Shown here in pieces: positions 18,810 to 54,874 of a stretch of DNA of 64,000 nucleotides. Every line of letters begins with the position of its first letter. The stretch's first letter is position 1. A program made the position numbers and the translations under genes. The notes beneath the pieces were generated by a model. It worked only from the letters and a program-made list of their open reading frames with translations. It was not told where the DNA came from and ran no database searches. Source of the DNA: Sabellastarte sp. h YS-2021 (taxonomy: Eukaryota; Annelida; Polychaeta; Sabellida; Sabellidae); the NCBI GenBank assembly GCA_964017235.1, contig OZ024933.1, positions 11,907,962 to 11,971,961 on the forward strand, given 5' to 3'.

Positions 18810-19831
18810 GTAAAATTTGAAGTAACACCACTTTGTCAGCTGTGTTGTAATCATTTCTCTTCTACTTAGAGATAATCAAATTATGATTCTACTTCTCTTA
18901 TTGCTCACAGGTGGCATACAATGATGAATATGGAATTCACAGGTTAAAAAAGCAGGAATTTGTTGGAATTACCATATAAAATATGAGTAGAATTTTTGAT
19001 TCTTCTCCAATATGGTCCATATAATGAAATTGTCAATCCTCATATTTTAAAATTGGTCAGGATTGTTAAAATGTAGGCTGCTGCACCTCTTTTAATGTAT
19101 CATTTAAAAAAGACTGTTCTCTGTAAGAGTTTTGTTAAAATCCAAAATTACATACATTCTGTTGATTATAAAACCAACCCCACAATGAAAACTATTTTAG
19201 GCTTGTGTGAGTCATATGTATTTTACAGCAGCATAGAATGTAACAAGTAACATGCTTGTAGCACTGGGGAGACATAATTAGAAACTGTTTATTATAAGTT
19301 ATTGATATTGTGTGTACCAAAGTTCCATTTTGTTTTGCCATGATTTAAGCTTAATCATATGAGAATATAACATATTTGGGTTATTTAAGACAACATGAAA
19401 AATGTACAACTGTTGTTAAATTTTAGGTTGGTTGGTCTTTTAAACCTGAAATTTTAAAACATGTTTCAAAAGGATATTTGTAAAATGTTAGCTGAAAAGA
19501 TTTACACCTAACATAACCTGACAAGATTTTGTTTATTTTAAGTAAATAAAAAGCCCCTAGCTCTGTGCCTAATAAAAACTTAAACTACAAGCAGTACAGA
19601 TGCCAGAGAAAAGGGCTCATTAAAACACAGATGAGGTGATGTGTGTTCTCATGACTAACCCCTAACCCTAACCCCAAAGGACGGACCATAGTCACTGTGA
19701 CAGACTCCAGAATGAAGATGTTGTGAGTGACAGAAATTCCATCATCATGGGTGCAGAGATGATTTGTGAGGTAGTTCTGAGAATGGCTGTACCTATAAAA
19801 AGGAAAGACACAAAAGCAGTCATCAACATTA
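18810..19831. other. Start of receptor intron 7
   Basis: No coding signal. A short CCCTAACCCTAACCCC run near 19655 is too small to be telomeric. Confidence 0.5.
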
Positions 19832-20636
19832 GGGTCATCGCAAGCAGAGCCTGACTTGCAAATCACAAATGTCAAACATAGGGGAAAACTTGCAGGAGTC
19901 TAGTGTATGTCTCCTCAGGCACCCGCAACATATTGAGGTTCATTAGGAATCCTGTGAAGCCATTGTGGCATAGGAAATCATGAATTGTGTCTGAGGATCC
20001 TCAACCAGTGAAATGGAGTAGCTGTCAAATTCTTTAGTTGGTGTGATTTGTTATCATGCTTCCATCGATGGCAAACATGTCAGAACTAGACAACCAAAAC
20101 TAAAGTTTATAATTATAAAAAAGTTTCTCCTTGACTTGGTATGGGTTGATGTGGATACCAATATTTACTGTTCTCATTTGTTTTACTTGTGAACTTGGCT
20201 GATCATCCACATACGTGTACTTTATTTTTTACTATGTTTTTATTTTTATATTATTATTTACAAATTTATTAAAGTGACATCGTATAAGGTAAATATATGA
20301 TTGAAAAATATTCATTGTGTAAACGTTATGCCGAGCCCCTGTGGACTTAATAGTCACTGCAAGTTATATATTATATGACAGTTAGGCAGGCAGGAGATTT
20401 ATGTAATTGTACTTAACAGTTGGCTATCCTCTACATCTGCCAATGTTTTGTCATATTCTTCAAATTCCCAACAAATATTTAAAATAACCTCTAAGCATTT
20501 ATAACTATATACTGATTTAATAACTTTGGGACCAATCCTAAATATGTGTTTTTACCTTGTCTTATATTTCTTGCTAAACTGTACAATGCTACTTTTGACA
20601 TCATATGTTGAAACACACCACTTGGTACACCAAGAA
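19832..20636. repeat. First copy of a recent tandem duplication (with internal deletion)
   Basis: 19832-20425 matches 20637-21230 and 20424-20636 matches 21691-21903. I noticed only about two base differences (AAGG versus ACGG; TTGC versus TTCC). About 460 bp (21231-21692) is absent from this copy, with a CT microhomology at the join. Confidence 0.9.
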
Positions 20637-21903
20637 GGGTCATCGCAAGCAGAGCCTGACTTGCAAATCACAAATGTCAAACATAGGGGAAAACTTGCAG
20701 GAGTCTAGTGTATGTCTCCTCAGGCACCCGCAACATATTGAGGTTCATTAGGAATCCTGTGAAGCCATTGTGGCATAGGAAATCATGAATTGTGTCTGAG
20801 GATCCTCAACCAGTGAAATGGAGTAGCTGTCAAATTCTTTAGTTGGTGTGATTTGTTATCATGCTTCCATCGATGGCAAACATGTCAGAACTAGACAACC
20901 AAAACTAAAGTTTATAATTATAAAAAAGTTTCTCCTTGACTTGGTATGGGTTGATGTGGATACCAATATTTACTGTTCTCATTTGTTTTACTTGTGAACT
21001 TGGCTGATCATCCACATACGTGTACTTTATTTTTTACTATGTTTTTATTTTTATATTATTATTTACAAATTTATTAAAGTGACATCGTATACGGTAAATA
21101 TATGATTGAAAAATATTCATTGTGTAAACGTTATGCCGAGCCCCTGTGGACTTAATAGTCACTGCAAGTTATATATTATATGACAGTTAGGCAGGCAGGA
21201 GATTTATGTAATTGTACTTAACAGTTGGCTTCTTTTCTCCCATATATCACATATAAAATCCATACTTACCACACACTTTGATTTTCTTACTATTCATTGC
21301 CTTAGTGACATCAGCAACAGATTTGTTACAATATTTATATCTAACATTTCATAGTAAGCAGGACGTATATTTTAGATTATGGCACATGCATAGGAAATGT
21401 TTTTCATCTTCAATAGATTATTTATATTTATTGCAGATTCTGTCTTCTACCTTCAGTCTGTAATGACGACCTGTTCTTATTTCTGAGGGCAAAATGATAT
21501 TTTATATTTTGATTGTAATGTTTTGGATTGCATGGTTTTGAATTTTCTCAGCTTTGTGATGATTGGGATGACCCCACACACTAGAACAATAGTCCAACAC
21601 AGGCAAAACATAGGAATTGTAAAGCTTGGCAAATGTGTTATAATTTACATCCGCAGAATTTCTAAATTTCCTATTATTTGGCTTAGTGCTCTATCCTCTA
21701 CATCTGCCAATGTTTTGTCATATTCTTCAAATTCCCAACAAATATTTAAAATAACCTCTAAGCATTTATAACTATATACTGATTTAATAACTTTGGGACC
21801 AATCCTAAATATGTGTTTTTACCTTGTCTTATATTTCTTCCTAAACTGTACAATGCTACTTTTGACATCATATGTTGAAACACACCACTTGGTACACCAA
21901 GAA
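20637..21903. repeat. Second, full copy of the tandem duplication
   Basis: Contains the complete LINE A 3' segment, including 21231-21692, which is lost from the first copy. Confidence 0.88.
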
Positions 21904-22558: not shown

Positions 22559-22562
22559 GTTC
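22559..22562. repeat. Target-site duplication GTTC (left) of the Ty3/gypsy element
   Basis: GTTC at 22559-22562 matches GTTC at 34909-34912, just outside the two LTRs. Confidence 0.85.
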
Positions 22563-22865
22563 TGTAGTGAATCGCGGGCGGAGACGATCTCGCCGTTAGA
22601 ATAGCCACTTGCAAACGGCAATATAAAAGGTGAAGGTCGTCGTGACAACGAGAGATCCAATACCAAGTGACGAGAGTAGAAGTTAAAAATGCCCCCATAT
22701 TTGAGATGAAGACGATGTAGTTAGGAAGAAATAGTACAGATAGTTGTGTAGAAGGACAATATATATATAGTGAATAGACATTAATAGAAGACGTTAGTAC
22801 ATTCAGTGATCCAGCAGTTAACCTGGAAGTGGGATGCTGCAAACAGTAACTGGTGAGTTACAACA
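22563..22865 (+). repeat. 5' LTR
   Basis: Starts TGTAGTGAATCG and ends GAGTTACAACA. It differs from the 3' LTR at three bases I could find (GTGACGAG/GTGATGAG, GCCCCC/GCCGCC, TTCAGTG/TTCATTG). A likely donor site CTG|GTGAGT lies at 22852/22853. Confidence 0.95.
22619..22630 (+). promoter_or_regulatory. TATA-like box in 5' LTR
   Basis: CAATATAAAAGG in the LTR; expected start of retroelement transcription shortly downstream. Confidence 0.6.
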
Positions 22866-22866
22866 C

Positions 22867-22884
22867 TGGTACCAGGGTGCCAGG
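22867..22884 (+). promoter_or_regulatory. Candidate primer-binding site
   Basis: TGGTACCAGGGTGCCAGG begins one base after the 5' LTR. A TGG start here is standard, since tRNAs end in CCA. The tRNA species was not determined; a Leu-type 3' end is possible. Confidence 0.55.
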
Positions 22885-24255
22885 TGATAGAATCCACGTG
22901 GTATATCACAGTGTGATTTAATTTGGTCCGTTAAATACAATTATTTTGTGGTTTAAGGTTGATGGGTAGTGAATATTGCATAAACCAATGTATTTTGTGT
23001 GTATTTTAATGTTCAGATTACCATCAGTTTGAACATTAAATTACCGTGAATGTGACAGCTTGTGACATGAAAGCTGGGTTTGTCAGTTTTAAGGCTGGTG
23101 TACAATAAAGCCAAATTACTTTTAGTGCAGTAATTAAATTGAATTTACCTCCAGAATTGTGAATTTTTGGTGGATTTCAATTTGATTGAATAAATTTGGT
23201 GTTGACCATTGGTGAACCGATTTGGTCTGAAATTTGAATTACGGTCACTGTGTTTATCAAATTCATTAGGCAAAATTGGGCAAATCCAAATAAAATTTGG
23301 GGTTATTTGAAATTGTTTATATATAATCCATAACTTAGGTTTATTTGGAAATTTATTTGCAATATTCATTGAATTTTTTTTTTTTTTTTTTTGCCATTCA
23401 GTAATTTCGAATTGTTATATAATTTTAAAATTATAATTTGATTATTGCAGTTACATAAATCTTAATTTATATCTAGAGTTTAAATTGTTACACTTTAATC
23501 TTGATTTAAGTAACAAATTTTTGAATAATTATCTTCTGGTAAAATTGTGTACAAGTGGTATTCGTTCAGTAAATTACTTCAATTTGACCATCAGTAAATT
23601 ATTATTCAGTAAATTATTTTGAAAATAGTTACAGTAATACTCAGTAAAATCTGTAAATTATCTTTTAATATCAATACAGTAATTTTCAATTTTTTCAAAT
23701 TTATAAATTAATTCTTTTAAAAATATTGTTTGCATTTAATGTACATGGTATATTATATTTAGGAATTAATTGTACTAATATCATAAATTGATTTGCCTGT
23801 TATGTATTGAAATTACAATTACAAAATCAAGTTTGACTCATTTATGTTTGGGTTGAGGATGTTTAATTTGGGATATTGATTATATTGATTTGATGATTGA
23901 TTGATTGTTGATTATACTTGCTTACAAAATCAAATAGTGCATGTTTTAGTATATCAAATCAATTTTGAATCATATAATAAATATTTATTTTTGGGAAATT
24001 ATTTTTGGCAGTATTGGTTTGCACAGGTTGACCAGTTTTGGAAATAAAGTGGTACTAAGAGTATCAAGTTTTCTGATTTGATTTCTTAGTCTGAAGTTGG
24101 GAAAAAAAAAAACATTGTCAAAATTTTTGCACTTTTTGACTGGTTATGTTTACTTTGTTAAATCATAGTTAAGTAACCTTTATTTTGCAACTTTACATTT
24201 TTTGTTACATTAACTTTGATAAACCATAGTTAAGTAACTTGTGTTAAAATTCAAG
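22885..24255 (+). other. Long AT-rich leader of the retrotransposon
   Basis: About 1.4 kb without ORFs between the primer site and gag, with many CAGTAAATTA-type repeats and a repeated CATAGTTAAGTAAC block (near 24166 and 24225). Unusually long for a gypsy leader. Confidence 0.6.
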
Positions 24256-25080
24256 ATGGCTACCAAACCATTGAACGTCAATGTTGCGTCAAAGAAGGAG
24301 TTGGAGGATCTGGTTGACATTGGATCAAAGTGTGCTGCATTGATCGTTGACATGAGGGAGGCAGTTGGGTCAATCAGTGAATGTGTATTCATGATGTTGG
24401 ACATCCCCAAGCATATCAAAGAGAGGATTGTCCAGCAAGGAGAACTTGTGTTTGATCCTGTTGGAAGCCCGATGAAGTCAGAAGTCATTGACTTGAAGCA
24501 GTTTTGTCAGACGATGACCGGGGCTTTTAACTCTGTCAGAGCTGAAAACCAACAACTTAGTGGGAAAGTTTCTGGTGAAATTCAATCCATTAAGGATGAT
24601 GTTTCCAGTATTCACGGCCGAATAGACCAAATAGCTGATGAATTTGATGACATCAAGAAGGACGTCGGTGATTGGAGAACGAAGGTCGAGCGAAGTTCGT
24701 CAGGCTCCAGTAGGTCAAGTAGTGGATCCGACAAAGAAAAACAACATGTTGTGAAGCCAAAGATAACAAGTACTGAACAAGAACATTTTCCAGATCGTAT
24801 GAAGCAGGAAGCTAGGAAACAAGCAGCATTGGATCAGCTTGAAGAATCCTATGAACAATCACGGCAAATGAAACAGGATAGATCGAATTTTGAGCGTGAA
24901 TATCTTGCAAAATCAGAAAGGTGCCGATCCGACATAGTGCAGACAGACATCGACAAACGCAACCTGATTTCACAAAACAAACGTTATCAGGGGGAAAGTA
25001 AAGTGAGAATGTTGTCACTCAATGAAAAGACAAATGCTGTGGTACGTAAGATCAACCAAGGTGCAACTGAACTCAAGTAG
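24256..25080 (+). CDS. gag: gag N-terminal part
   Basis: Open frame from ATG 24256 (MATKPLNVNVASKKELEDL) to a stop at 25078-25080. The first third is globular and matrix-like, then come a Ser-rich linker (SSGSSRSSSGSDKE) and a long charged, probably coiled-coil C-terminus. It precedes the capsid and nucleocapsid parts, which continue in other frames, so the original gag was probably one longer frame now broken near 25080. No family match is certain from sequence alone; position between leader and capsid supports the call. Confidence 0.65.
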   Translation: MATKPLNVNVASKKELEDLVDIGSKCAALIVDMREAVGSISECVFMMLDIPKHIKERIVQQGELVFDPVGSPMKSEVIDLKQFCQTMTGAFNSVRAENQQLSGKVSGEIQSIKDDVSSIHGRIDQIADEFDDIKKDVGDWRTKVERSSSGSSRSSSGSDKEKQHVVKPKITSTEQEHFPDRMKQEARKQAALDQLEESYEQSRQMKQDRSNFEREYLAKSERCRSDIVQTDIDKRNLISQNKRYQGESKVRMLSLNEKTNAVVRKINQGATELK

Positions 25081-25112
25081 AAGTTTGGCGTAATTTACCC
25101 GTTTGGACGGGA

Positions 25113-26627
25113 TTGGATTTGAGCTTGCGTCAGGCCCACAACCCTGATCGACATCTGTTAGATTCCCCTGTTCCACAGATACTCCCCAGGTATCACTACC
25201 TCCAGTCTACCCCTTTCCCTTCCAAGTTTGCGGAACAAAAACCACAGTCTCCCCCTTTCCCACCTAAGTCTGTGCATTATGGACAGCCGTCGCAGCTTAG
25301 AGGTGCGCCACAAGATCAACCTTGTGACCCTCAACCTAAGCCCATGACACAGTCAAGACCTCCACAGTCATACAGCAGAAAGTCACGGGAATTGTATCAT
25401 CCACCCGCCTTTTGCAACATTCCACAGCAGGAACACAGGGATAGAATTCAGCCACGACAATCAGTTGGTCATAATCAGCCTCAAGTTGTCATGCCCCAAC
25501 TCAGTCCAGTTAAAGGTGACTTTGAAACCATGATGAGAGAGGTGATAAAAGAGGAACTGAAGAAGACCATGGAGCCCTTGAGGAGTGCAAATCATTCATC
25601 AAGGAGTGCCCGAAGGAGAAGAAATAGGTCTTACAAATACAGCAATTCATCAAATTCAACAAACTCAGATGATGAAAATAGCCGAGCGAGAGAAATTGGA
25701 CAACTTCTCCATGTGTTTGAAGAAAGATGCGGCAGAGTATTACAGCGTCTTGCGGGAGCGGAACGAAATGAATTTCTTGGAAATAAAAAAGAGGTTCGAG
25801 GGGTTCTTTGACAAAACTGAACCTGCATTTGCCATTCGTTGGGACATACTCAACATTGAACAGAGAGAAGACGAACCACTTGAGAAGTATTTAGCCCGAC
25901 TTCAAGGAATGATCATGAGAGCATATCCAGGTTCCAGCCCAAGTGAACAAGATAACACTCTGTTCATTGAGGTCTTCCTGAAGGGATGCCGGGAGAAAGG
26001 AGCTGTACTTGCCATTTGTGACAAGAAGCCGACAAGCCTGGAGGAAGCCTACAAGTTTGTGCAATCAGCTTCACAGTACAGAAGAGCAGTGTTGGGCAAA
26101 AAGGTTAAAACAAGAAGGTGCATTTCATCCAAACTGCTGACAAGTCGAGTAACATCAACAGTGATGAGCTGGATACTACTACGGAGGAAAAACCTCTGGT
26201 GCGCAGTATTCAGAATAAATCGAGACCACCAACAACCAAACCACAGCAGGAGCACTCATCTGTTGAAACAGAAATGCGGGAGCTGAAAACCTTGTTTGGA
26301 AAAATGTTGAACTTGTTACAAAATCCACCAAATCAGGGTTATAGGTCGCCACCCAGAAACCAAGGTTGTTTTGAATGCGGATCTCCGAGTCATTTTGTTA
26401 AACAGTGTCCTAGACAGCGAGGATCCCCTAATTCAAGCCCTAGGAGGGGTGATGACCGCAATTGGAGATCGCGAGGCGACAGTCAAGGTGCGTCTAATCC
26501 AAACTGGAGGCAGAAAGATCAGGGGTCAAGGTCGCCACCATCCCAGTCCTGGAGGTCACGTGAGCGTGCTAATCAGGAGTGGAAGATTGGGACACCACTG
26601 CAGGGGCAGCCTGGAGAGTCAAGTTAA
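25113..26627 (+). pseudogene. gag: gag capsid and nucleocapsid region, frameshifted
   Basis: A Pro/Gln-rich stretch (25113-25560) leads to a capsid-like helical domain at about 25690-26110, in another frame (FLEIKKRFEGFF, RWDILNIEQREDEPLEKYLAR, FLKGC), typical of retrotransposon gag proteins. The frame changes again to 26118-26627, which holds a CCHC zinc knuckle (CFECGSPSHFVKQC at about 26370-26411) followed by an Arg/Ser-rich RNA-binding tail. At least two frameshifts break the region. The protein would form the virus-like particle core and bind element RNA. Confidence 0.8.
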
Positions 26628-26675
26628 GTTTAATTTAAACTATTAGACCAGGACGGGCGAATTCCCAATGATCTG

Positions 26676-27417
26676 GCCCAACATAATAGTTTAGATTCAT
26701 TAGTTAAGACAGTTACCAAGCATGTTCATAAATGTAGTAAAGGAGTCAGTTTTGCATGTCAACAATTGTGTCAAGAGAACCAAAATAATTTGAGTGCCTT
26801 AATTCCGTGTTCATTAAATGGAATACAGGTGAATGCCTTATTAGATACCGGTTCAGAAGTAACTGTAGTAAACTTTGATGTGTATAACAAATTGATTCCA
26901 AAACCTTGTTTGAAAGAAAAGGTGAGGTTAAATGGTATTTGTAGAGAAGTAGATGTTTACACTTGGTTACTTGAAGGAATTGAAATAACTTTTGGTCAAA
27001 CAAAAAACTTTTGGAATGTTTATGTAGCACAGATAGCTGAACCCTTTATAATTGGGATTGATTTTTTGTGCCATTTTGGAGCAAAATTAGATTTTCGAAA
27101 CTACATATTCACATTGAATGATGAGAAGAAAGGGATTCACTTGTTCAAAACAGAATCAGGAGATAGTTTTGAAGTTTGCCCTGTAACTATAGATAAGAAG
27201 ACTGTTATACCTCGTAATAGTGTAGTTAGAACTTTAGTTCAGTCTCTTTTACTAAATGAAACCTATGCTATACATTCAGTCAACAGTCAGCGGTTCCTGA
27301 TACCGAACACTGTGGTCACCGGTGGAGGCACACATGTTCCGGTACAACTGGTGAATGATCAGAACAGGTACATTAGATTGAAGAAAGGTCATGTCATTGG
27401 GCATGCTATTCAATGTG
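26676..27417 (+). CDS. pro: pol: aspartic protease domain
   Basis: The frame shows LLDTGSEVTVV at about 26849-26880, the catalytic D-T-G of a retropepsin, and FIIGIDFL near 27046, the conserved I-I-G-x-D-x-L element. After the domain the frame runs on as a linker until it is interrupted by a SINE at 27418. It would process gag and pol polyproteins. Confidence 0.85.
27404..27417. repeat. SINE target-site duplication, left copy
   Basis: TGCTATTCAATGTG repeats at 27656-27669 on the other side of the SINE. Confidence 0.93.
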
Positions 27418-27655
27418 TTTGTTTGTTTGTTTATTTGGGGTTTTACGTCGCTTTCAACACTGTACAGGTCATATCACGACGGGTAGTTGGAAGGGCAGAG
27501 GAAACCAGTACATATAGTTCGCTAGGGTTCTGTACTGTAAACTGCCGACCAACGGCAAGCAACTACCAGCTTTCCCACTTACGGCCATGATGGGGATCGA
27601 ACCCCGGCCGCAGAGGTGGGAGGCGAGAGTGTTACCACTCTGCCACCGTGGCCCC
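27418..27655 (-). mobile_element. tRNA-derived SINE, family A, inserted in pol
   Basis: It lies minus-strand between 14-bp duplications. On the minus strand the head reads GGGGCCACGGTGGCAGAGTG (A box) and GGGGTTCGATCCC (B box), clearly tRNA-like. The tail on the plus strand is TTTGTTTGTTTATTTGGGG. SINE plus one duplication is 252 bp, a multiple of three, and the pol frame resumes in the same phase at 27670, although the SINE itself contains stops. Confidence 0.93.
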
Positions 27656-27669
27656 TGCTATTCAATGTG

Positions 27670-28770
27670 ATGTGGTGCCAGAGGTCATAGACACCGATTC
27701 GTCATTCAAGGTGAGGTCAATAACAGATAAGCCACCATCCCAACAAGTAGATGAATTACCAGAACATCTGTCAGGTTTGTTCAGTCGTTCTGTTAACAAC
27801 TTAGACAGTTCAGAACAGAAACAGTTAAAGACAGTTTTGTTAGAATTTCAACATATTTTATCTAAAGGTAGTGGAGATTTGGGTTGTTTCTCTGAAATTA
27901 AACATAAAATTAATACCGGAGATGAAAGACCTGTAAAACAACCAATGCGTAGGACGCCAATCGGTTTTGAAAAGGAGGAGTTATTTCCGAATCATCCTCT
28001 GACTGGGCATCAGCTCCAGTGTTAGTGCGGAAAAAAGATGGGAGTGTGAGATATTGTGTTGATTTCCGATGTCTTAATGATAAAAAGGTTAAGGACTTAT
28101 TTCCATTGCCGTCAATATCTCAATGTTTAGACCGACTTTCTGGAAACATGTGTTTCTCCACATTAGACATGGCTCTCGGATACTGGCAGATAGAAATTGA
28201 TGAACAGGATAGGCATAAGACAGCATTTATTACCAAGTTTGGGTTGTTTGAACACCGAAGAATGGCCTTTGGTTTATGCAACGTCCCAGCTACTTTTCAA
28301 AGAGTAATCCAACTGGTCCTGAGGGGATTAACCTGGAATAAAATACTGGCCTATCTTGATGATGTAATTGTGCTGGGTAAAAACTTTCAAGACCATATAA
28401 AAAATCTCCGCACTACTTTTGAAAGATTTGCGAAATATAACCTTAAGCTTAAACCTAAGAAATGTGTCTTGTTCCAGACTGAAAACACGTTTCTGGGTAG
28501 GATAGTCAGCTCAGAGGGACTAGGTGTAAATCCAAACAACATTGAGAAAGTAAAAAACTGGCCTATTCCAAAATCAGTAAAAGATGTTGAGAAATTCTTG
28601 GGTTTTCTAAATTACCACAGGGAGCACATCAGGGATTATGCTAAGATAACGTTAGTGTTGTATGAGTTGACAGGTAGCAAAGCCATTTTCAACTGGCAGG
28701 GGAAGCATCAAGAAGCTTTCGAGGATTTGATTGGAAAGTTGACAACACCACCAGTTCTAGCTTATCTAAA
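27670..28770 (+). pseudogene. pol: pol: reverse transcriptase domain
   Basis: The frame to about 27978 contains the usual run-in (KHKINTGDERPVKQPMRRTP). A small deletion and frameshift follows, and the RT core continues in another frame: WASAPVLVRKKDGSVRYCVD, FSTLDMALGYWQIEI, FGLCNVPATFQRV and the catalytic box LAYLDDVIVLG near 28350, then FLGRIVSSEGL. All signature residues of a Ty3/gypsy RT are present. The lost segment lies just before the first catalytic motif. Confidence 0.92.
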
Positions 28771-29160
28771 TTCAGATGACATGTTTATTTTAGACACAGA
28801 TGCTTCGGACCATTCTATTGGAGGTGCACTTTCCCAATTTCAAGACGGTACAGAGCGAGTCATAAGCTATGGGAGTTTTGTGCTTACACCTGAGCAGTGG
28901 AAGTACTGTATAACTAGGAAGGAGTTGTTAGCTGTTGTGAGGTTTACTAGACAGTATAGACACTATCTGCTTGGTAGGAAATTCCTAGTAAGGACAGATC
29001 ACAATAGTTTAACTTGGCTCTTAAGATTCAAGTATATAGAAGGCCAACTGGCTAGGTGGCTAGAGGAACTAAGTCAATTTGATATGACTGTAATCCATCG
29101 TCCTGGAGTGAGGCATGGTAATGCAGATGCATTGTCACGTGTAACAGATGATATACCATT
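28771..29160 (+). CDS. pol: pol: RNase H domain
   Basis: Same frame as the RT. FILDTDASDHSIGGALSQ holds the first catalytic Asp; TRKELLAVVRF the Glu; VRTDHNSLTWL the next Asp; HRPGVRHGNADALSR the end of the domain. It degrades RNA in RNA-DNA hybrids during element replication. Intact in this copy. Confidence 0.9.
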
Positions 29161-30731
29161 TTGTGATTGTTACAGAGCTGGTTCCGATCCGAATTCACTA
29201 CCTTGTGCTGGTTGTAAGTATTGTCTCAGAGCACACAATCAGTGGTCCAGATTCAGTGAGGAAGTTGATGACGTTGTTCCTCTCGCGGTTATCACAGTAA
29301 ACTTAGTGAAACCGGTGAGTAGATCAGTACCTTGGATAACTGGTTACACTACAAGTGAAATGGGTGAGATTCAATCTTCTGATCCATGTTTAGGTAAACT
29401 AATTGCATGGATATCGAGCGAGAAGGAGCCTGAACAAAGGGAGTTATACCTGAGTAGTCCAGCCATTAAACATTTTTATATTTGTAGGAAGCAATTACTT
29501 TATAAAGATGGGCTGTTGTATTATAAGTGGAAAGAAGAAGCTGGTGACAGATTATTACTCATGGTTGCTGGTAAGCTTAAACAAGAGGTTATGTCCCTTA
29601 ATCCTGACATACCACTTTCTGGCCATATGGGAATAGCTAAAACCTTAGCTAGAGTGAATCAATCTGTTATGTGGTATAATCTGAGGAAGGATGTGGAACT
29701 GTTTGTGAAGTCTTGTTCTGAGTGTATAAGAATAAGAAAGCAAATGTTAAGGCAAAAGCTGTGTTAGGCCAATTTCATGCAGGTTCGCCATTGGAGAGGG
29801 TCCATATTGATATACTAGGACCGGTTACGCCAAGTTCCAAAGGTAATCAGTATGTACTTATGATCGTGGACCAGTTTACCAAGTGGTTGGAATGTTTTCC
29901 TCTTCCACATCAATCAGCAGAAGAAGTAGCCAGATGTGTAGTTGATGGTTTCATTTCCAGATTTGGATGTCCATTGGAGATACACACCGATCAAGGTAAA
30001 AACTTTGATGGTAACCTGTTTGCTTCTGTTTGTGAGTTATTGCATATTGTCAAGAAGAGGACGACACCATACAGACCTTGTTCAAACGGTCAAGTGGAAA
30101 GGTATGACCGAACGTTGCTCCTGCCGAGTATGTATTAAAGTTGAGAACTATTTTGAATAAAGTTCATACTTTAGCAAGGGAAAATCTAGTGTCAACACAA
30201 ATGAGACAGAAGAAAGACTATGACCTGAGGCTGAAGGAGAACACATATGAAGTAGGTGACTTGGTTTATTTATTAGATTCTGCCTGGAAGATTGGACAAA
30301 GTAGCAAATTGCAGCAGATATGGAAGGGCCCGATGCTGGTGACTAAAGTGGTAACACCAATCCTTTTTGAGGTTACGGGAAAGAAGAAGCCAGTCATCAT
30401 ACATCATGATAGGTTAAAACCCTGTTGTGATCGAAACATCCCCATATGGTTGCTTCGTAAGAGGAATCAGCTATTAGGTAATCAATCCGAACTTTGTGAG
30501 AACACTTCAATTTGCCAGGAAGATGATGATCTGAATCTTAGTCACTTATTTGAAGTGAACTGTCAGGATACAGCTGATTCAGGTATGGAAGCTAATGATT
30601 CTTTAGTTTTGGAAGAAGAGTTAAAAGTAAATACAACAGAAGAAGGTAACCAAGAAGTAAGCAAACCCTCAGTAACGAGAGCCGGCCGGGAAAGCAGGAG
30701 GCCCAGACACCTGGTAGATTACTATAGTTAA
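29160..30731 (+). pseudogene. int: pol: integrase, frameshifted and internally deleted
   Basis: Zinc-binding HHCC remains near 29610-29735 (HMGIAKTLARVN, FVKSCSECIR). After a frameshift near 29740 the catalytic core follows: Asp in HIDILGP, Asp in EIHTDQGKNFDG, Glu in GQVERYDRT near 30100. Directly after the Glu motif the sequence jumps to the region normally well downstream (EYVLKLRTILNKV), so roughly 60-70 codons of the core end are missing. The C-terminal domain with WKGPMLVTKV (GPY/F-type module) and HHDRLKPC is present to the stop at 30729-30731. Confidence 0.88.
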
Positions 30732-30842
30732 GGTAGTTAAGTGTCTTGTTACCAAAGTTGGCATGGCTTACCAGGTGAAGTTTACAAGTTACTAATCAAC
30801 TATAGCTCTCATGTTTTGGGGACTTACACGTTTGTTTCCTTC

Positions 30843-30849
30843 TTGTAGA
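30843..30849 (+). promoter_or_regulatory. Candidate splice acceptor directly before the third ORF
   Basis: A pyrimidine-rich run (TTTGTTTCCTTCTTGTAG) ends at 30848, immediately before ATG 30849. With the donor-like site at 22853 in the LTR it could give a subgenomic mRNA. Confidence 0.55.
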
Positions 30850-31612
30850 TGGATCGAGGTAGGTCATCCTACCGAGGGAGGAGGTCCCGAGACAGGGATC
30901 GGGAGAGGAGGCCAGAGTACCACCCACGCAGGAGTCCCGCCACCGATTTCTACGGGAGACCTGGTCATCAGGGAGGAGGGTTACGTCGTTACGATGATAG
31001 ACCTCGCTCTCAAAGGATGACAGAAATGGCAGAAGGCATGAACGCAGAAGTCATGACACTGATTTCGCTTCACATGACCGCTACAGACGTGATCCTTAAC
31101 AATGCACCACCAAGGAAGAGGATGAATCCGTCACAATTATACTGAGGGATTTATACAGTGAACTCAGGGTAGAAGTCATAAGGGCAAGTGTCAATCACCC
31201 TGAAAGCCGCAGGAGGCCTTTCGATAAGGGGATTCTACTCCAGCGATGTTTAGAGGATTTACGCGGTCTTTCTACATGGCGACGTACAAGCCGTCTGGAG
31301 CCATCTGCTGCATTAGGGGCACCCCCGCAGGAACCAAGTACCAGTGGAATCCCTACGGCAAGTACCGCAAGTGTGTCTGCTCCAAAGCCCTCTACGAGCG
31401 GAATCCAAAGGATTGACAAGTCGGGCACATCCTCCGGTGACAAACAAAGATCACGGGAAGAAACCTCTGCTGGATCTCAGTTGACTCTGCAGATACTGCA
31501 GGAAAGTACCTCTGGTGTGTCTGAATCAACTCCACAAAGACCACGGGAAAATATCCCCAGTGGTGCTCAGGAATTCAAGATAGATGCAGAAATCGTCGGG
31601 CGAGGCAACTGA
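30849..31612 (+). pseudogene. Third ORF, N-terminal Arg/Ser-rich part
   Basis: ATG 30849 opens a frame rich in Arg, Ser, Gly and Asp (MDRGRSSYRGRRSRDRDRER), similar in composition to RNA-binding RS/RGG segments, ending at TGA 31143-31145. The frame shifts and continues from about 31146 (DLYSELRVEVIRASVNHPES, then Ser/Thr/Pro-rich sequence) to a stop at 31610-31612, inside a 131-bp tandem duplication. Function inferred from composition only. It precedes the zinc-finger and TatD parts and probably belonged to one long protein. Confidence 0.55.
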
Positions 31613-31834
31613 GCAGAAGTCATCTTCAGTAAAAAGAAAACAGGAGTGGGTCAAAGTTACGTACAAAAAGCCTGTCAAGCAAGCAAAGTATGTAACCTAT
31701 CTCATTCAAGATAGATGCAGAAATCGTCGGGCGAGGCAACTGAGCAGAAGTCATCTTCAGTAAAAAGAAAACAGGAGTGGGTCAAAGTTACGTACAAAAA
31801 GCCTGTCAAGCAAGCAAAGTATGTAACCTCATAT
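31573..31834 (+). repeat. 131-bp direct tandem duplication
   Basis: ATTCAAGATAGATGCAG starts at 31573 and again at 31704. The two copies are identical as far as I can see, and the join contains ATCTC. Since 131 is not a multiple of three, it alters the reading frame of the third ORF. Confidence 0.92.
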
Positions 31835-32560
31835 GCTTACAGAAAAGATATAAAGAAGGATAGACCCAGCCGGGAAAGTGAGCCTGTCGAGTCATCCAAG
31901 AAACGAAGGAGGGTAACCCCTAAGATGAAGTGTTTCATGACTGGTTGCAACTCCATGAACAAGCATATGAAAAAGCATGTGATTGGTAAACATCTGCCCA
32001 CTGAGGCCTACAGTAAAACCGGGGATTTACCCCTGGGTTCTCGCATGCGAATCTTAGAAGACTTGCTGAACAAAATAGCTCACCACATTTCAATACCAGA
32101 GCCTGATATTGAAATGATGAACCAGTTCCACCATTGGTTGTATTCAGAAAACCTGCCAAGGACACCATCAATCAGTCCACCTAATCTTGTAGCCTCTCTG
32201 GTACAGTGGAGAGTCTTGGCTCATCTCATCAATTGTATAGGAGAGAGCAAGTTCAATATCAAACGTGTAAAGATAGACAAGGTGCGTGTTACAAGGGACA
32301 TTGTACCAGCCAGCGTAGACAATTCGGACGTTCAAGTGGAATTGACCAGTGACCAGACAGATCAGGCAAAATCAAAGGAGAAGTCAAGTGAAAAACAGAC
32401 CCACAAGAAGTCTGTTAAACAGAATCTGGACAAAGCGAACACAGCGGAGTCTGCACCAAGATTCAGGCCACTATCTGTTGTTATCGCTGAATCATTAGGA
32501 CAAGCTTCAGCAGGGAAGGTTCCACAGGGAAAAGCCTCATTGGAGAAGAAGGTAAAATAA
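31715..32560 (+). CDS. Third ORF, middle part: basic region with possible C2H2 finger
   Basis: Open frame of about 280 codons. It shows a basic nuclear-localisation-like run (SSKKRRRVTPK), then CFMTGCNSMNKHMKKHVIGKH, which fits a C-x4-C-x9-H-x4-H zinc finger, then a helical segment (LPLGSRMRILEDLLNKIAHH, FHHWLYSENL, LVQWRVLAHLINCIG), then a charged Lys/Ser-rich linker to TAA 32558-32560. The same frame continues past this stop towards the TatD domain, so the stop is probably a single mutation. Function is not known; nucleic-acid binding is an inference from the finger and charge. Confidence 0.6.
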   Translation: MQKSSGEATEQKSSSVKRKQEWVKVTYKKPVKQAKYVTSYAYRKDIKKDRPSRESEPVESSKKRRRVTPKMKCFMTGCNSMNKHMKKHVIGKHLPTEAYSKTGDLPLGSRMRILEDLLNKIAHHISIPEPDIEMMNQFHHWLYSENLPRTPSISPPNLVASLVQWRVLAHLINCIGESKFNIKRVKIDKVRVTRDIVPASVDNSDVQVELTSDQTDQAKSKEKSSEKQTHKKSVKQNLDKANTAESAPRFRPLSVVIAESLGQASAGKVPQGKASLEKKVK

Positions 32561-32584
32561 GTTGAACGTAGTGAGTTTGTAGTT

Positions 32585-34463
32585 GTGGACAGTCTATCTC
32601 CGGAAAGGGGGGACGAGATGGAAATAGATCGGCAAGAGGTCATGCCAGAAAGGAAGGAAAGGCAAGGAGAAATTGCAAGGTCTGTGGAGTCTGAAGCAAT
32701 GGAAACAAACAAACCAGTGGAGACAAAGGAGTCAACCTCTTCTGCCACTAGGAGTTATGCCGCAGTTGTACAATCGGGTCCAGCAGTGCCAGCAAAGGGG
32801 AAAAAGATGAAACCATCACCACTTGGTATTCCTTATCCCAAAGAGGAAAGGGAATTGAGGTTAGTGCGTTTGGTGAGAAATTCACAAAGGATACTGTTTG
32901 TGGATTCTCACTTCCACCTTGATCGGGTGCAGCAGGATCTAGAGGAGATACTGGCTAACGGGCCAATCCCACAAACCCCAATGAAATTGGAAGCTGCAAT
33001 AGCCAACTTTATTGATGGCGTACCATCAAGGAGTGAGACGCGGGATTTGTCCAAGGATCGACGGTTGTTTTTTACCTTCGAGGTGCATCCAAAGCGTGCT
33101 CACAAAGTAACCCCTGAAGAGATGAAAGCGGTGAAAGAAGTTGTTTTGAAGGAACCAAAGTGTGGGAATTGGTGAGATGGGTTACGACCTAACTGATGGT
33201 TGTAGCGTACATCTGGACAAGCAAATGAAGGTGTTCAAAGAGCAGCTGAGACATTACGCCAGCAAGGAGTTATGGTCAACTGTCATGGTTATTCACTGCC
33301 GAGACAGTGTGGACTCCAAGGAAGCCACAGAGTTATGCTTGGACACCATGGGAAGTCAGTTATTCTCTAAACACCGTGGTTCTTATAAAATTCATGTGCA
33401 TTGCTTCAATGGGGGAATGAAGGAAAAGGACGTCTGGTTGGCTCAATACCCAACAGCCATGTTTGGATTCACTGGACTGTTGCTAAGTAGTGAGCGTCAT
33501 CCCGAGCTAGAAGAAGTTGTACGATCTCTGGAGCCAACCAAGATTCTCCTGGAGTCAGATTCTCCCCATTTACTCCCCCCAGCATTTAAAACCGAGAAGT
33601 TCAACACTCCTTAACCTGGGTGTTATTTTCGACTCAGACAACTCCTTTGACAATCATGTTGCCAAGGTTTGCAGAGCATGTTACTATCATCTTCGTGATT
33701 TGCGACGAATTCGCAAATTCCTTGGAGTTGAGACAGCAATACTTCTGGCAAACGCTATGGTCAGTAGTCGTCTAGACTACTGTAACTCTTTACTCTATGG
33801 GGTAAGCAAGTCCAACATAGCCAAACTACAGATAGTCCAGAATGCTCTTTGTCGCATCATCTTCAGACTTAACAAAATGAGTCATGTTACACCGTTTTTG
33901 AAAAAAACTCCACTGGCTCCCAATTCAACATCGCATCCTGTTTAAGTACAACCTTTTGGTATTCAAGGCTATTAATCTTTCACAGCCCCCGTATCTTTCA
34001 GATTTAATAAGATCGGGCAGTCTCACTCGTGGCAACAGGCTATCTATCTCCTCAACCCGCCCTAATAAGCACATAGGAAGGCGTGGCTTTGCAGTGGCTG
34101 CACCAGCCGAATGGAACAAGCTGCCACAGACTGTCAGATCTCAGCAAACAATAGATGGTTTCAGAAGCCAGCTAAATACCTACTTGTTTATGCTGGCATA
34201 CCCCCCACCTTAGTTATACCCTGGCGGGCGCTTTTTATATGTCGACCCAAGCCTGTCCCTGGACTCTCCCTTCTTGGACTCAAGTGCATTAGAAGATTTG
34301 TATCAATTTTGCGCTATATAAATCCTACTATTATTATTATTATTATGGAATCGATGAAGTCGCTTGTAGGATAGCTTTTTTGCGTGGAAAAACTGTCAGG
34401 GAGATTTTAGATCTCAGCTCCTTCAACGCGAAAAGGCTCTACGGAAAAATACAGATTCTGTAG
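32585..34463 (+). pseudogene. Third ORF, C-terminal TatD-family nuclease domain (interrupted)
   Basis: The frame from 32585 has a Glu/Lys-rich linker (SYAAVVQSG near 32752) and then FVDSHFHLD near 32899, the H-x-H start of TatD hydrolases (metal-dependent deoxyribonucleases, TIM-barrel amidohydrolase fold). After a one-base frameshift near 33160 the other ligands follow in order: Glu in GIGEMGYD, His in VIHCRDS, His in HVHCFNGG, Asp in LLESDSPHL. A truncated LINE splits the domain at about 33612-34346. Downstream the final TatD helices resume (GIDEVACRIAFLRGKTVREI, SSFNAKRLYG) to TAG 34461-34463. The closest host family would be TATDN2-type proteins. The domain lies inside the LTR element, not in a separate host gene. 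Confidence 0.88.
33612..34346 (+). mobile_element. 5'-truncated LINE B copy inserted in the TatD domain
   Basis: It encodes the C-terminal end of a LINE polymerase (LGVIFDSDNSFDNHV, SRLDYCNSLLYGVSKSNIAK, then in another frame APAEWNKLPQTVRSQQTIDG) and a 3' UTR ending GCGCTATATAAATCC plus an ATT repeat. The same sequence is present on the minus strand at 35745-36450. Clear target duplications were not seen. Confidence 0.88.
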
Positions 34464-34605
34464 GAGAAAAATGTTCAGCAGGCGGTTTACCAATTGCTGA
34501 ATATGACTTAGAGGATGGGCCGGGAGGTGAAGACACTGCCATGAGCATGACAAGTGCCGTCAACTTGTTTGTCATGACACCAAGCTTCTCGTTGACTGAG
34601 GAGAG
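34464..34605 (+). other. Short 3' untranslated part and polypurine tract of the gypsy element
   Basis: Non-coding sequence between the third ORF and the 3' LTR. GAGGAGAG at 34598-34605 directly before the LTR is the likely polypurine primer. Confidence 0.55.
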
Positions 34606-34908
34606 TGTAGTGAATCGCGGGCGGAGACGATCTCGCCGTTAGAATAGCCACTTGCAAACGGCAATATAAAAGGTGAAGGTCGTCGTGACAACGAGAGATC
34701 CAATACCAAGTGATGAGAGTAGAAGTTAAAAATGCCGCCATATTTGAGATGAAGACGATGTAGTTAGGAAGAAATAGTACAGATAGTTGTGTAGAAGGAC
34801 AATATATATATAGTGAATAGACATTAATAGAAGACGTTAGTACATTCATTGATCCAGCAGTTAACCTGGAAGTGGGATGCTGCAAACAGTAACTGGTGAG
34901 TTACAACA
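34606..34908 (+). repeat. 3' LTR
   Basis: 303 bp, TG to CA, three substitutions from the 5' LTR; followed by GTTC, the target duplication. Confidence 0.95.
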
Positions 34909-35700
34909 GTTCTTCAGCACTTCATTTAGAATCTGGTCCGAACCTGGTGATTTATCTTTGCACAGTTGATATGGCTTTCTATTTTAGAATAATATTTATT
35001 TAAAATTGAATTAGATTACAGTGAGGTCATTTCATTTTCAATTTTTGCACCAGAAGACATGAGATAGCATAGAAGGTATAATCAAATTTATTATATTAAT
35101 TCTCACTTCTGTTATATATAGTGCTAAAATACCTTATCCGTTTACATAATACCGCATCAAAGTCAATTACCAAAGTTTCACCTTTTCGTATGCGCATAGG
35201 TATTTATTTTTATTTCTGTTTTGCCTAAGAGGCTTTATTTTGTGCCAAACTTTCTTTAGATTTGTTGAATTGAAGTGAATCAAAAAGACCTCCCTTTTCC
35301 TTTAAACGTTTATCAATTTTTTTTATGTATTCCAGAAATATATTTTATATTTGCTACTTCTTCTAGATTTTGGATCATGGTATTTAATAAATTGTTTTTC
35401 AGCATTAGAAATGTTTTTTTCCATGCAGTAGCCAATTCATTAAGGTTAGCTATTCTTATAGTATTTATGCGTTTTTCTATTCATTTATTGGATTTCAAAT
35501 AATTATTCATTTCGTGCAACATACATGTACACAATTTATTATAGAGCGTCTCAATAGCTTGTTGTGATAGTACACTGTTTTCAAGTGATATGTTATTTCT
35601 TGTTATTTAAGAAGTTATTTTGAAAGTTATATCATCTATAGTCTTCTTGATCACTCTTAAAAGAGTATATAATTTCATTGGAATTATCTACTTATTTCGA
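34909..35700 (-). mobile_element. LINE A, 5' side of the split element (minus strand)
   Basis: Directly right of the gypsy element the minus strand reads KSPGSDQILNEVLKN at about 34915-34960, the conserved N-terminal RT motif (K-S-P-G-x-D) of non-LTR elements. The matching downstream part of this RT, YADD, is at about 21970, left of the insertion. Further right, minus-strand traces such as KKIDKRLKEKGGLFDSL remain, with many stops. Confidence 0.65.
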
Positions 35701-35744: not shown

Positions 35745-38605
35745 CTAGGATTGAGCTATCCCGAGGCTGACAGGTGATTGATATTTCACTATATAGGTTA
35801 TACTTAACTGGAAATATTTTAAACTAAAGGTAAAATTTTCTGTTGTGTTACAAAAAAACCCCACCAGGGTATAACTTAGGTGGGGGTATGCTAGTCTAAA
35901 CAAGTGAATCTTTAGCTGGCTTCTAAAATGATCTGTTGTTTGCTCAGATCTGACAGTTTGTGGCAGCTTGTTACATTCAGCTGGTGCAGCTACTGTAAAG
36001 CCTTGCATGCTTATTCGCTTCTTAGGGCAGGTTGAGGAGACAGATAGCCTGTTGCCACAAGTGAGACTGTTCAGTCTTATTAAAGCTGAGAGATTGAATA
36101 CCAGGAGATTGTACTTAAAAAGGATACAATGTTGAATTGGAAGCCAGTTTTTTCAAAAAGGGTGTAACATGACTCATTTTGTCAAATCTGAAGATGATGC
36201 AGAAAAGAGCATTCTGGACTCTTTGTAGTTTAGCTATGTTGGACTTGCTTACCCCATAAAGTAAAGAGTTACAGTAGTCCAGAGGACTACTGACCATAGT
36301 ATCTGCCAGAAGTATGGCAGTTTCATTATTAAGGAATTTGCGAATTCATCGCAAATCGCGAAGATGATAGTAACATGCTCGGCAAACCTTGGCAACATGA
36401 TTGTCAAAGGAGTTGTCTGAGTCAAAGATAACACCCAGATTCTTTACTTCCACTGACGGAGAGATATTGTTTTGGAGGTGTGGGACAGGGAAAATTTGGT
36501 GCAAGCAACTCTCTGATGGCGTTTTGACCTATGATGATAAATTCATATTTTTCTGAGTTTAGTTTTAGCTTAACACCATCCATCCACTCCTGTACTGACT
36601 TGAGACACTCGGACAGCTCTTCCATGCTAGAATCAAAGTTCCTGGAGTCAACTGCTAAGTAGATCTGGTTGTCATCAGCATATAGGTGATGAGTAACATT
36701 GAATTTAGAAAAAACTCAACTGAGGGGACTAGTGTAAAGGGTAAAAAGGAGAGGACCCAATACGGAGCCTTGGGGGCTCCGAAAGGGAGAATTACCTCAG
36801 AGTCTCAGAGAAACTATCACCTATTTTAATTTTTTGTTTTCGGTTTGAAAGGTACGATTTGATCCACAACAAGACAGTGCCATATAGATAAAACCAGTCA
36901 TGCAAGCAGTCATATAAAAGGGAATGATCAATAGTGTCAAACGCCTCTGACAGGTCCTATAATGTCAGGGCCACTGCCTTTTCTGAGTCCACTAAGAAAG
37001 CTATATCGTTTTGAATCTTCAACAATGCGGTTTCAGTGGAGTGGGAACTCTTATAAGCAGACTGTTTGACATTTAAGAGACCCTTGTGTGAAATGAATTC
37101 ATTTAGCTGGTTTGCCACAACTTTTTCGATAAGCTTTGATATAAAACTAAGGTTTGACACTGGCCTGTAGTTTTTGAGGCTATTTCTATCAAGGCTGGGC
37201 TTCTTATGGAGGAGGGTGACATGTGCCATCTTTAAACAGTTGGGAAAACTACCTTCTTTGAATAATTTACAATTTTAGTGATGGGAGTGATGAGAATATC
37301 AGCACACTCCTTGACCAGTGACATTGGGATTGGGTCGAGGCCACAAGATTTGGATGGTGAGGACTTTAGAATTTTCAGTAGGCTTTCCTTGGACACAGGT
37401 GTGAAAGAGGACAGTGTATTTTTAGTGGGGTTGGGTCTAGTGACTGAAGATGGTGTTGATGACTGCAGTGTGGATCTTATTTTAAGGATTTTATTAGAGA
37501 AAAACTTACAAAAGATGTTTGCAAGGTCGCTTTTATTTGCACAGTCTGGTAGAACAGTAACAGAGGACCTGTGTAAAATCTTTTTGAAACAGTTCCACAA
37601 AGCCTTAGGATTTCCTTGATTTTCAGCCACAATGTTGGAATAATGGCTATATTTTGACTTCTCAAGCAGGAAGTTATGGCAGGAGTTATGGCAGGAGTTT
37701 TCACGGCACCATGCCCTTTCATATTTCCGCTTGAGTCGTTTTGCCTTGAGGATGTTACAGTTCATGAAACCAGTCTCGGCATGTCTCAGAATATTTTTCT
37801 TCTTCATTGGGGCGTGTTTGTCAAGGAGGCTTCTCAAGGTATTAATGTATTGATGATTCAGAAGACTGGCAGTGTTATAGCTGCATCTAATGAGGTCAGA
37901 TTTAAGGACATATCTGCTCTGAAGTCTAGAATGCTTATCTTGTGAATTTTACAGATGAAAATATGTTGAAACTAACAGGACTCTCTGACGGGGATAATAA
38001 GGCTGAACACGATTGCCTGGTGGTCTGTTAGTCCTCCAATAACTTTGTGACTAATGGCCCAGGAGAAAGAATCCCTCACACATACAGCATCCAAAATGTG
38101 ACCCTGAATATGTGTGGGTGTATTAACAAGTTGTGTAAAACTAAATTGCTCAAGGAGGTCATAAAATTTCAGTGTCCAGGTGTCGTGTTGATCCAGATGA
38201 AAATTAAGATCACCAAGGAGAATGTTTTCACAGCCTGCCAAAGCAGCACCTTCAAGAAAAATGCCAAATTTGTCTAGGAATTGAGACTTTGACAGATTTG
38301 GGGGTCTGTAGAGCACATGAAATATAACATCTTTAACACCATTGTTTTTTGAAACTTACTCAAAACTCAGGTCCTCCTTGATGAAAAAGCTAACTCTGCC
38401 CCCTTTCTTGACATTTTGAGGAACATGAGTGAACTTATAACCAGGAGGGGTGATACTAGAGATAAAACCTTCAGTATCCTCTGGTCTAAGGCATGTCTCA
38501 GTAACAGCTATGAGATCAGCATTGTTATCTTTGACCAACTCTAAAAAGGAAGCTAATTTATTTCTGATAGATCTAATGTTGAGAAGACAACCATTATACT
38601 AACAT
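35745..38605 (-). pseudogene. LINE B: endonuclease and reverse transcriptase polyprotein, decayed
   Basis: Minus-strand pieces in order: apurinic endonuclease start (ADLIAVTETCL near 38510; KKGGRVSFFI), endonuclease core (ILLGDLNFHLDQHDT, LTDHQAIVFSL at 37990-38240), linker (37232-37837, with SKSCGLDPIPMSL), RT (NYRPVSNLSFISKLIEKVVA near 37170, KQSAYKSSHSTETALLKI), thumb (ECLKSVQEWMDGVKLKLNSE near 36590) and the C-terminal end (LDYCNSLLYGVSKSNIAKLQ near 36250; VAAPAECNKLPQTVRSEQTT near 35980). This is the layout of a CR1/L2/Jockey-type LINE ORF2. Frameshifts and stops occur between segments. The 5' end seems cut near the start of the endonuclease and the 3' UTR ends near 35860. Confidence 0.88.
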
Positions 38606-54730: not shown

Positions 54731-54874
54731 TGATATTTTTCTGCATTTAGTTCTGTAAATTCAAGTCTAACTGCAATTGAGGGATGTATTGAGCAGACTG
54801 AACATAAATTACACCAGGGCACAGCTTTGAGATCTTAAGGCATGGTCAGGTATGTTCAAGTTGCAATCAATGGT

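Follow-up and report, generated by a model that had tools for sequence, protein, structure and literature searches.

A 64,000-nt stretch of the genome of the annelid Sabellastarte sp. h YS-2021 (assembly GCA_964017235.1, contig OZ024933.1, positions 11,907,962-11,971,961, forward strand), hereafter the window, contains a Ty3/gypsy long terminal repeat (LTR) retrotransposon (22563-34908, 12,346 bp, + strand) in which a third open reading frame (ORF3), located between the integrase and the 3' LTR, ends in a TatD-type nuclease domain. The TatD domain is almost certainly borne by the element itself. With a probability of about 0.6, the data are best explained by a Ty3/gypsy family of several lineages whose ORF3, in the position of env, encodes a selected TatD protein that would act on the nucleic acids of the element. 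Loci from the host genome are designated by L numbers, proteins by P numbers and host contigs by C numbers.

Linkage of TatD to integrase and LTRs in the host genome

The first-pass annotation of the window had placed the TatD region between integrase and 3' LTR, and it was found there (integrase core and C-terminal region, 29722-30728; 3' LTR, 34606-34908). The host assembly (1.79 Gb, 647 contigs) was searched with a 154-aa piece of TatD, and the best 150 of 617 first-look candidates were scored, yielding 151 matches, 150 of which were listed. The listed matches had E values of 1.9e-29 or lower and identities from 100 to 45%, and many were located in open frames of 831-1239 aa. With the integrase core as query, 4720 candidates were obtained, of which the best 150 were likewise scored. 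The 150 listed TatD matches were paired with 142 of the 150 integrase matches (8 of the 10 belonging to a tandem array on C1 were omitted); each list holds the scored best of its 617 or 4720 candidates, so an unpaired match does not mean that the partner is absent. For 79 of the 150 listed TatD matches, an integrase match of the same strand was present within the 10 kb upstream, at a distance of 2.8-3.8 kb for 71 of these, compared with 1/150 for integrase upstream on the opposite strand and 9/150 for integrase downstream on the same strand as controls.

From the 71 unpaired TatD matches, the 20 best-scoring, which are not a random sample, were fetched. Pieces of gag or pol were present upstream at 15 loci, a match to the window LTR was present downstream at 15, and at least one of the two was present at 19 ('PR' matches at query positions 257-318 correspond to a repeat resembling a short interspersed nuclear element (SINE) and were left out of the gag/pol tally). 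At the neighbouring loci L042 and L043 the downstream LTR match extended over only 51 bp, and L047 had no match to the window LTR, yet was flanked on both sides by 300-bp direct repeats of its own (95% identity). Conversely, 63 of the 142 integrase matches had no listed TatD match; at the first of them (C1:94888321, locus L053), zinc-finger and TatD pieces were found downstream, the TatD being partly missing.

A search with the 5' LTR gave 83 candidates, of which 40 were scored. Thirty-four of them formed 17 pairs around a listed TatD match, and two were 3' LTRs whose partner was not listed. Of the remaining four, C2:7373109 was an extra LTR, with a TatD match about 13 kb downstream of it, and three stood alone. 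The spans of the 17 pairs were 11.6-12.3 kb in ten cases and 4.6, 8.9, 9.1, 9.8, 10.9, 14.9 and 18.5 kb in the rest. The distance from the TatD match to the 3' LTR was 262-294 bp in 18 of 19 cases (262-281 bp within the 17 pairs, the window excepted) and 995 bp in the window, because a fragment of a long interspersed nuclear element (LINE) is inserted there. Among the 40 scored LTRs, two might be read as a pair with no listed TatD match between them (C2:7373109 and C2:7378502, about 5.1 kb apart); C2:7378502 was read as the 5' LTR of the adjoining TatD copy, because the gag pieces of L033 are located at the same distance from it as the gag of the window from its own 5' LTR.

In the shortest of the 17 paired copies, L035 (4.6 kb), the two LTRs agree at 294 of 299 positions and the target duplication is ATAT. 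Its interior consists of the leader and the beginning of gag, fused to the zinc finger-TatD end of ORF3 at a short stretch of shared sequence. Because of this junction, L035 was interpreted as a template-switch deletion, and its interpretation as a spliced copy was rejected. In L034, L037, L040 and L047, parts of pol were lost and the end of ORF3 was retained, and several copies carry stops. Two tandem arrays were also observed, one with six TatD matches about 5.4 kb apart (C11:99804093-99831447) and the other with ten integrase matches, spaced by about 2.03 kb, and a TatD match after them (C1:160162926-160185102); both are pieces of the element turned into repeat arrays.

The genome search that the first-pass annotation had proposed therefore found TatD matches in a fixed order with the element integrase (79/150) and with LTRs (17). 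The outcomes that it had set against its own proposal, other element copies lacking TatD while TatD hits are stand-alone spliced host genes, or a failing profile search, did not appear among the copies and matches covered: the TatD profile was found (below), and TatD was linked to integrase and LTRs, a linkage that also distinguishes it from a stand-alone spliced orthologue of TATDN2. A multi-copy family of stand-alone host genes, into or near which gypsy elements inserted by chance, could be argued from L044, where the 9.7 kb seen contain a zinc finger-TatD region but neither gag/pol nor a matching LTR, and from other zinc finger/HWR-TatD members known from sequence without their surroundings. 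This explanation is contradicted by the fixed order, strand and spacing relative to integrase and LTR, by the 4-bp duplications outside LTR pairs (GTTC in the window, ATAT in L035), and by the unspliced open frames; it was considered refuted for the lineage of the window and has next to no probability overall.

The TatD domain and its condition in the window copy

ORF3 starts at 30849, and the TatD domain forms its C-terminal part. In the window, its first part (30849-32560), which is broken, comprises an arginine/serine-rich (RS-rich) start, a basic patch, a CCHH-like zinc finger and an HWR-type helical region; it is followed by a linker and the first part of the TatD domain (32561-33612, TatD from about 32900), by the LINE fragment inserted in TatD (33613-34345, ends approximate), and by the C-terminal end of TatD with the ORF3 stop (34346-34463), a region that is uninterrupted in P0001 and L036. 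The first-pass annotation had given the domain as 32585-34463, of which the end, at the stop codon, was right, and the start was too early.

The profile search bore out its assignment to TatD, since a match to PF01026 above the curated cut-off of 27 was obtained at 33150-33611 (71.7 bits, E 8.1e-20, profile positions 85-219); a second match at 32561-33172 (16.4 bits, E 0.0061, profile positions 1-86) is, taken alone, under that cut-off. In the unbroken ORF3 of L036 (965 aa), TatD occupied residues 684-960 (132.3 bits, profile positions 1-253), and the 250-aa protein P0001 continued uninterrupted to the end of its ORF. The metal ligands H-x-H, Glu, His, His and Asp, as previously proposed, were seen in this order in the window translation, in the motifs HFH, E (GEMG), H (IHCRD), H (HVHCF) and D (ESDSP), and they are largely kept across 36 deduplicated copies: the first His in 25 (11 not covered), the second in 23 (two Tyr, 11 not covered), Glu in 33, the third His in 32 (four changed), the fourth in 35, and Asp in 32 (one changed, three not covered).

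The window ORF3 itself is a damaged copy. Its reading frame meets a stop at 32558-32560 and changes near 33150-33175, and 126 bp within it are duplicated in tandem (31573-31698 repeated, spanning 31573-31829). It also contains the LINE insert of about 0.73 kb, whose part 33613-34236 shares 83% identity with 35853-36441 on the opposite strand. The latter segment is located within 35745-38355 (- strand), judged by the look of its ORF pieces to be a non-LTR retrotransposon.

A structure was predicted for the relative P0010 (11-row alignment), and comparison of the model with the PDB gave 17 chains at E <= 0.001 with 18-23% identity. Fourteen of these are titled TatD, TATDN or deoxyribonuclease, and the other three are 3gg7 (uncharacterised metalloprotein) and two chains of 3e2v (uncharacterised yeast amidohydrolase, with the molecule name 3'-5'-exonuclease); in the viral structure library BFVD, no match to the model was found at E <= 0.001. 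A TatD-type fold is thus supported by the predicted model of the relative P0010, which is not a model of the window protein. The same fold and ligands are found in bacterial TatD/YcfH and QatD. These bacterial proteins are stand-alone proteins.

Relatives and phylogeny

Long relatives were obtained from ENA contigs of 2.8, 2.9 and 10.3 kb (P0010, 68% identity; P0011, 42%; P0013, 33%), and a search with the TatD part of P0011 gave 218 proteins, 120 of which were listed; P0014, P0015, P0016 and P0018 represent clusters of 42-115 member sequences. By regular expression, a zinc finger and/or HWR/HWK motif was detected in 62 of 122 proteins (zinc finger in 27, HWR/HWK in 58). Scans of IMG/VR with P0001, P0010 and P0011 gave no confirmed relative, and the GTDB genomes gave two bacterial TatD proteins, at 26% identity only.

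A tree was constructed from 68 rows, consisting of 61 rows hand-picked from the 122 proteins (P0010-P0131), five element rows and two bacterial rows. Fourteen conserved TATDN2-type rows (vertebrates, crustaceans, nematodes and a tardigrade; some named uncharacterised) formed one clade (100/92), which split off in all 200 bootstrap trees with the elements outside, and all other rows except the bacteria were placed on the opposite side (99/82), including a 13-row element clade (100/100). The TatD tree suggested by the first-pass annotation therefore separates the element clade from the conserved TATDN2 clade, and the element TatD is not placed as an orthologue within the latter. With a looser pattern, a zinc finger or HWR/HWK was detected in 40 of the 47 database rows on the element side, and the seven rows without either motif include P0015, P0017 and P0019 of the element clade; among the conserved TATDN2 rows only one of 14 matched (P0048, by eye a chance HWK). 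Because of this tree, the element TatD is interpreted as a sister line of TATDN2 and not as a gene copied recently from the vertebrate or arthropod type, with the caution that the tree has no undoubted mollusc TATDN2 and that its long branches call for care.

Animal TATDN2 (PMC12709183, in the sections consulted) resembles the element protein in having TatD at the C-terminus of a long protein, and is the nearest host relative among those found; in contrast to the element ORF3, neither the zinc-finger nor the HWR motif occurs in 13 of the 14 conserved TATDN2 rows. Vertebrate TATDN2 is, to our knowledge, a host gene that is not located in an LTR element. A combination of zinc finger and/or HWR with TatD was also present in two Mytilus records named TATDN2 or tatD, an uncharacterised Mya protein and a Pinctada TatD (HWR only), all of which fall on the element side of the tree.

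Several further records were noted during this analysis. Five records named 'TatD family hydrolase' from Sedimenticola metagenome-assembled genomes (P0034, P0043, P0064, P0066 and P0131) group on the side of the animal elements, four of the five carry a zinc finger and/or HWR/HWK, and they are probably host DNA in a symbiont bin. In two relatives from ENA contigs, P0110 (830 aa) and P0112 (666 aa), TatD is fused to NADAR, which is N-terminal in one and C-terminal in the other; P0112 also bears a zinc finger and HWR, and such NADAR-TatD pairs may be conflict enzymes. P0099 (800 aa) is a TatD protein with a CCHC zinc knuckle at residues 151-166 and is perhaps a gag-TatD fusion of another retroelement. 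In the giant squid genome report (PMC6962438), a putative TATDN2 is drawn beside the squid Hox genes, along with a pogo-type element.

Organisation and putative splicing of ORF3

The ORF3 of L036 begins 117 nt past the pol stop and contains, in order, an RS-rich start (35% Arg+Ser in residues 1-110), a KKRRR patch at residue 326, a zinc finger, an HWR-type helical region, a linker and TatD. The CCHH-like zinc-finger motif reads CFMTGC...HMKKHVIGKHLP, and the HWR-type motif is QWR in the window and L036, and HWR in P0010 and others. ORF3 occupies the position of env after pol. In L036, however, it has no transmembrane-like stretch (highest 19-residue hydropathy, 1.25) and no N-glycosylation motif (N-x-S/T), and because a strongly hydrophobic stretch and such motifs are absent from it, it is considered unlike env.

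Candidate splice sites were recognised by comparison with the splice-site consensus. A putative 3' splice site (30834-30848), consisting of a pyrimidine tract and TAG, abuts the ORF3 ATG, and the corresponding sequence GTTTCCTTCTTGTAG directly 5' of the ATG was invariant in 11 copies (0/15 columns vary), in which 35/102 columns vary in the preceding spacer and 12/60 in the start of ORF3. A putative 5' splice site, GTGAGT (22853-22858), is located close to the 3' end of the 5' LTR, and the sequence CTGGTGAGTTACAA at the LTR 3' end was kept in all 16 LTR rows aligned that far, including LTRs only about 75% identical overall (one of the 16, L003, is the 3' LTR of the window again). Since an invariant splice-acceptor-like site precedes it, ORF3 is probably translated, like env genes, from a spliced RNA in which the LTR leader is connected to the start of ORF3. 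A comparable case is CERV of the Cer1 element of C. elegans (PMC10309623), which according to the abstract is an accessory nuclear protein produced from spliced element RNA; splicing of ORF3 is here only predicted, and CERV differs in being a novel protein required for export of genomic RNA, described in that abstract without the word nuclease.

Selection on TatD and mosaic history of ORF3

The first-pass annotation had suggested comparing dN/dS (the ratio of replacement to synonymous changes per site) across copies, and between two lineages, represented by L013 and L004, a ratio of 0.06 was obtained for the TatD domain (56.5 synonymous changes/186 sites, dS 0.39; 15.5 replacement changes/669 sites, dN 0.024; Fisher p about 1e-26). 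Against eleven deduplicated copies of the L004 kind, dN/dS was 0.06-0.14. Because of the ratio of 0.06 between lineages, we conclude that selection kept TatD, and the domain has very probably been maintained as an active enzyme.

Several results weigh against the interpretation of ORF3 as a selected nuclease that acts on element nucleic acids. The dN/dS was 0.19-0.33 against the decayed copies L031, L032 and L050, 0.18-0.59 within a second lineage (L025, L028-L030, L047 and L049), and about 0.6 among near-identical copies, a set in which some loci are counted twice (L003-L032 and L033-L052 overlap); against more distant lineages dS was saturated, so no ratio is given. High ratios and stops are expected, since most insertions are dead, but they make the case for a present-day function weak. 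In the zinc-finger region, dS between L013 and L004 was only 0.04. To these are added L044, with no element parts in the 9.7 kb seen; the low confidence of the P0010 model (mean pLDDT 48.6, the TatD core alone being confident); the RS-rich, basic patch and zinc-finger assignments, which are read from motif and composition only; and the conserved LTR 3' end, which may serve integration and not splicing.

The low dS of the zinc-finger region indicates that ORF3 is a mosaic; along ORF3, identity falls from about 98% to about 90%. The TatD-3' part therefore differs in history from the remainder, and modules recombine.

The damage to the window copy, together with the stops in several others, would also be expected if a host TATDN2-like gene copy had been caught by chance in one element and carried without function. 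Such a passenger is very improbable, considering that TatD lies between LTRs in 17 copies, that its ligands are kept in a lineage of 46% identity, that open frames of 831-1239 aa exist at many places with dN/dS of 0.06, and that the tree does not nest the element TatD within the TATDN2 rows.

Possible function of the ORF3 protein

The simplest picture, and our leading guess, is that ORF3 would supply an accessory nuclease in the nucleus, with RNA, hybrids or cDNA 3' ends of the element itself as its substrates. The RS-rich region, the basic patch and the zinc finger would guide the ORF3 protein to the nuclear RNA or RNA-DNA hybrid of the element; the TatD domain would trim 3' ends of RNA or single-stranded DNA there; and this trimming would aid either transcription and export of the element or the finishing of its cDNA. 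Trimming of 3' ends of RNA or single-stranded DNA has been reported for E. coli TatD and human TATDN2 (PMC12709183, in the sections consulted). That ORF3 acts on the element's own nucleic acids, and not on host defence or competitors, is proposed tentatively, at somewhat less than even odds.

The closest parallel is ORF3 of the bdelloid rotifer elements Juno and Vesta, which in the passages of PMC5408684 concerned with it is a DEDDy nuclease in the env position, present in more than one lineage and without a membrane domain. RNA 3' ends and single-stranded DNA are among the substrates of both the DEDDy and the TatD type of nuclease, and the authors of that report also considered RNA 3'-end processing. 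The two differ in that the bdelloid protein is a DEDD exonuclease, in contrast to the TatD with H/E/D metal ligands found here (by profile and P0010 fold), and in that those passages report no significant departure from neutrality for the bdelloid ORF3, compared with the dN/dS of 0.06 between two lineages here. An enzyme domain fixed in a Ty3/gypsy lineage is also known from orchids, where, as summarised in PMC9289625, it is an N6-methyladenosine RNA demethylase; the enzyme and the hosts, plants, are different.

Two rivals of the proposed action on the element's own nucleic acids are real. In the first, ORF3 would serve counter-defence or exclusion, its nuclease degrading host silencing RNAs, host nucleic acids or the cDNA and RNA of competitors, so that the carrier wins. 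TatD proteins do occur in conflict systems, and the NCBIfam model of the anti-phage protein QatD matches ORF3 (44.3 bits against a cut-off of 230), although so weak a match indicates only TatD kinship; two relatives, P0110 and P0112, join TatD to NADAR; several element lineages share one genome; and suppression of silencing has been proposed for retrotransposon accessory domains, as outlined in PMC6338049. The RS-rich N-terminus and the zinc finger suit targeting of self RNA equally well, and counter-defence is considered rather unlikely. In the second, TatD would serve repair, as an apurinic/apyrimidinic (AP) endonuclease or a 3' end trimmer on the element cDNA or the gapped integration site. 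LTR elements integrate linear cDNA, which fits this role. AP endonuclease activity is also described in the consulted sections of PMC12709183 for TATDN1, TATDN3 and E. coli TatD. ORF3, on the other hand, looks separate from pol, with 117 nt between the pol stop and the ORF3 start in L036, and a repair function is judged unlikely.

Other features of the element and of the window

The element is bounded by a GTTC target-site duplication (22559-22562, abutting the outer edge of the 5' LTR, and 34909-34912) and by LTRs of 303 bp with TG...CA ends (22563-22865 and 34606-34908), which are identical at 300 of 303 positions. A putative primer binding site, TGGTACCAG... (22867-22880), was assigned from position and its TGG start only, and a polypurine tract, GAGGAGAG (34598-34605), precedes the 3' LTR. 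The gag region (24238-26624) is in broken frames and has a PNMA-like capsid match and a CCHC knuckle, both under the Pfam cut-offs. It is followed by the aspartic protease region (26634-27587; Pfam gag-asp_proteas, RVP), reverse transcriptase (RT), RNase H and integrase H2C2 (27971-29764; Pfam), and the integrase core (rve; Pfam) with the C-terminal region in two frames (29722-30728), the C-terminal match being under cut-off. The Pfam order of protease, RT, RNase H, integrase H2C2 and integrase core is that of Ty3/gypsy elements. Among solved structures, the RT was nearest to Ty3 Gag-Pol (4.1e-74) and to 4ol8 RT/RNase H (2.4e-69), which we take to be from Ty3, followed by 8r0s (7.5e-38). The element is therefore a Ty3/gypsy LTR retrotransposon, its RT being assigned among solved structures and not by a clade tree.

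Elsewhere in the window, a SINE-like repeat of about 240 bp was found at 27421-27667 (within the protease-RT region of the element), 50056-50290, 54873-55115 and 54008-54201 (77-86% alike), and 19831-21903, just upstream of the element, contains near-identical direct repeats, one of 595 bp (99.8%) and one of 213 bp (99.5%).

Significance

As judged by title and the start of the abstract, no TatD in any retroelement was found in the one open-access library searched; the first-pass annotation likewise knew of no described gypsy lineage with such an ORF. A text search of a few papers on transposable elements of annelids and bivalves did not find the word TatD. The TATDN2 copy described in the consulted part of PMC5408686 is a retrocopy and not an element. 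LTR retrotransposons with an enzymatic ORF3 are already known, and we judge the new part to be the TatD enzyme class, in a large selected family. With it, the accessory ORFs of LTR retrotransposons gain an enzyme class, and the env position would be known to hold a second nuclease, unrelated to the rotifer DEDDy ORF3, so that the question of why retroelements acquire such nucleases becomes testable. Because the family is abundant (at least 151 matches, from the best 150 of 617 candidates) and ranges from near-identical copies to about 45% identity, its evolution can be traced closely.

It is possible, at somewhat less than even odds, that the animal proteins with zinc finger, HWR and TatD, a large family which appears in databases as TATDN2, TatD hydrolase or uncharacterised, constitute a nuclease lineage of mobile elements, which Ty3/gypsy elements would carry as an ORF3 expressed by splicing and acting in the nucleus, exchanged among element lineages by template switching and in some cases fused with NADAR for conflict, and that this lineage is the source of the abundance of TATDN2 in marine invertebrates. 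The TATDN2 copy numbers of invertebrates, and some bacterial bins, may accordingly count mobile elements.

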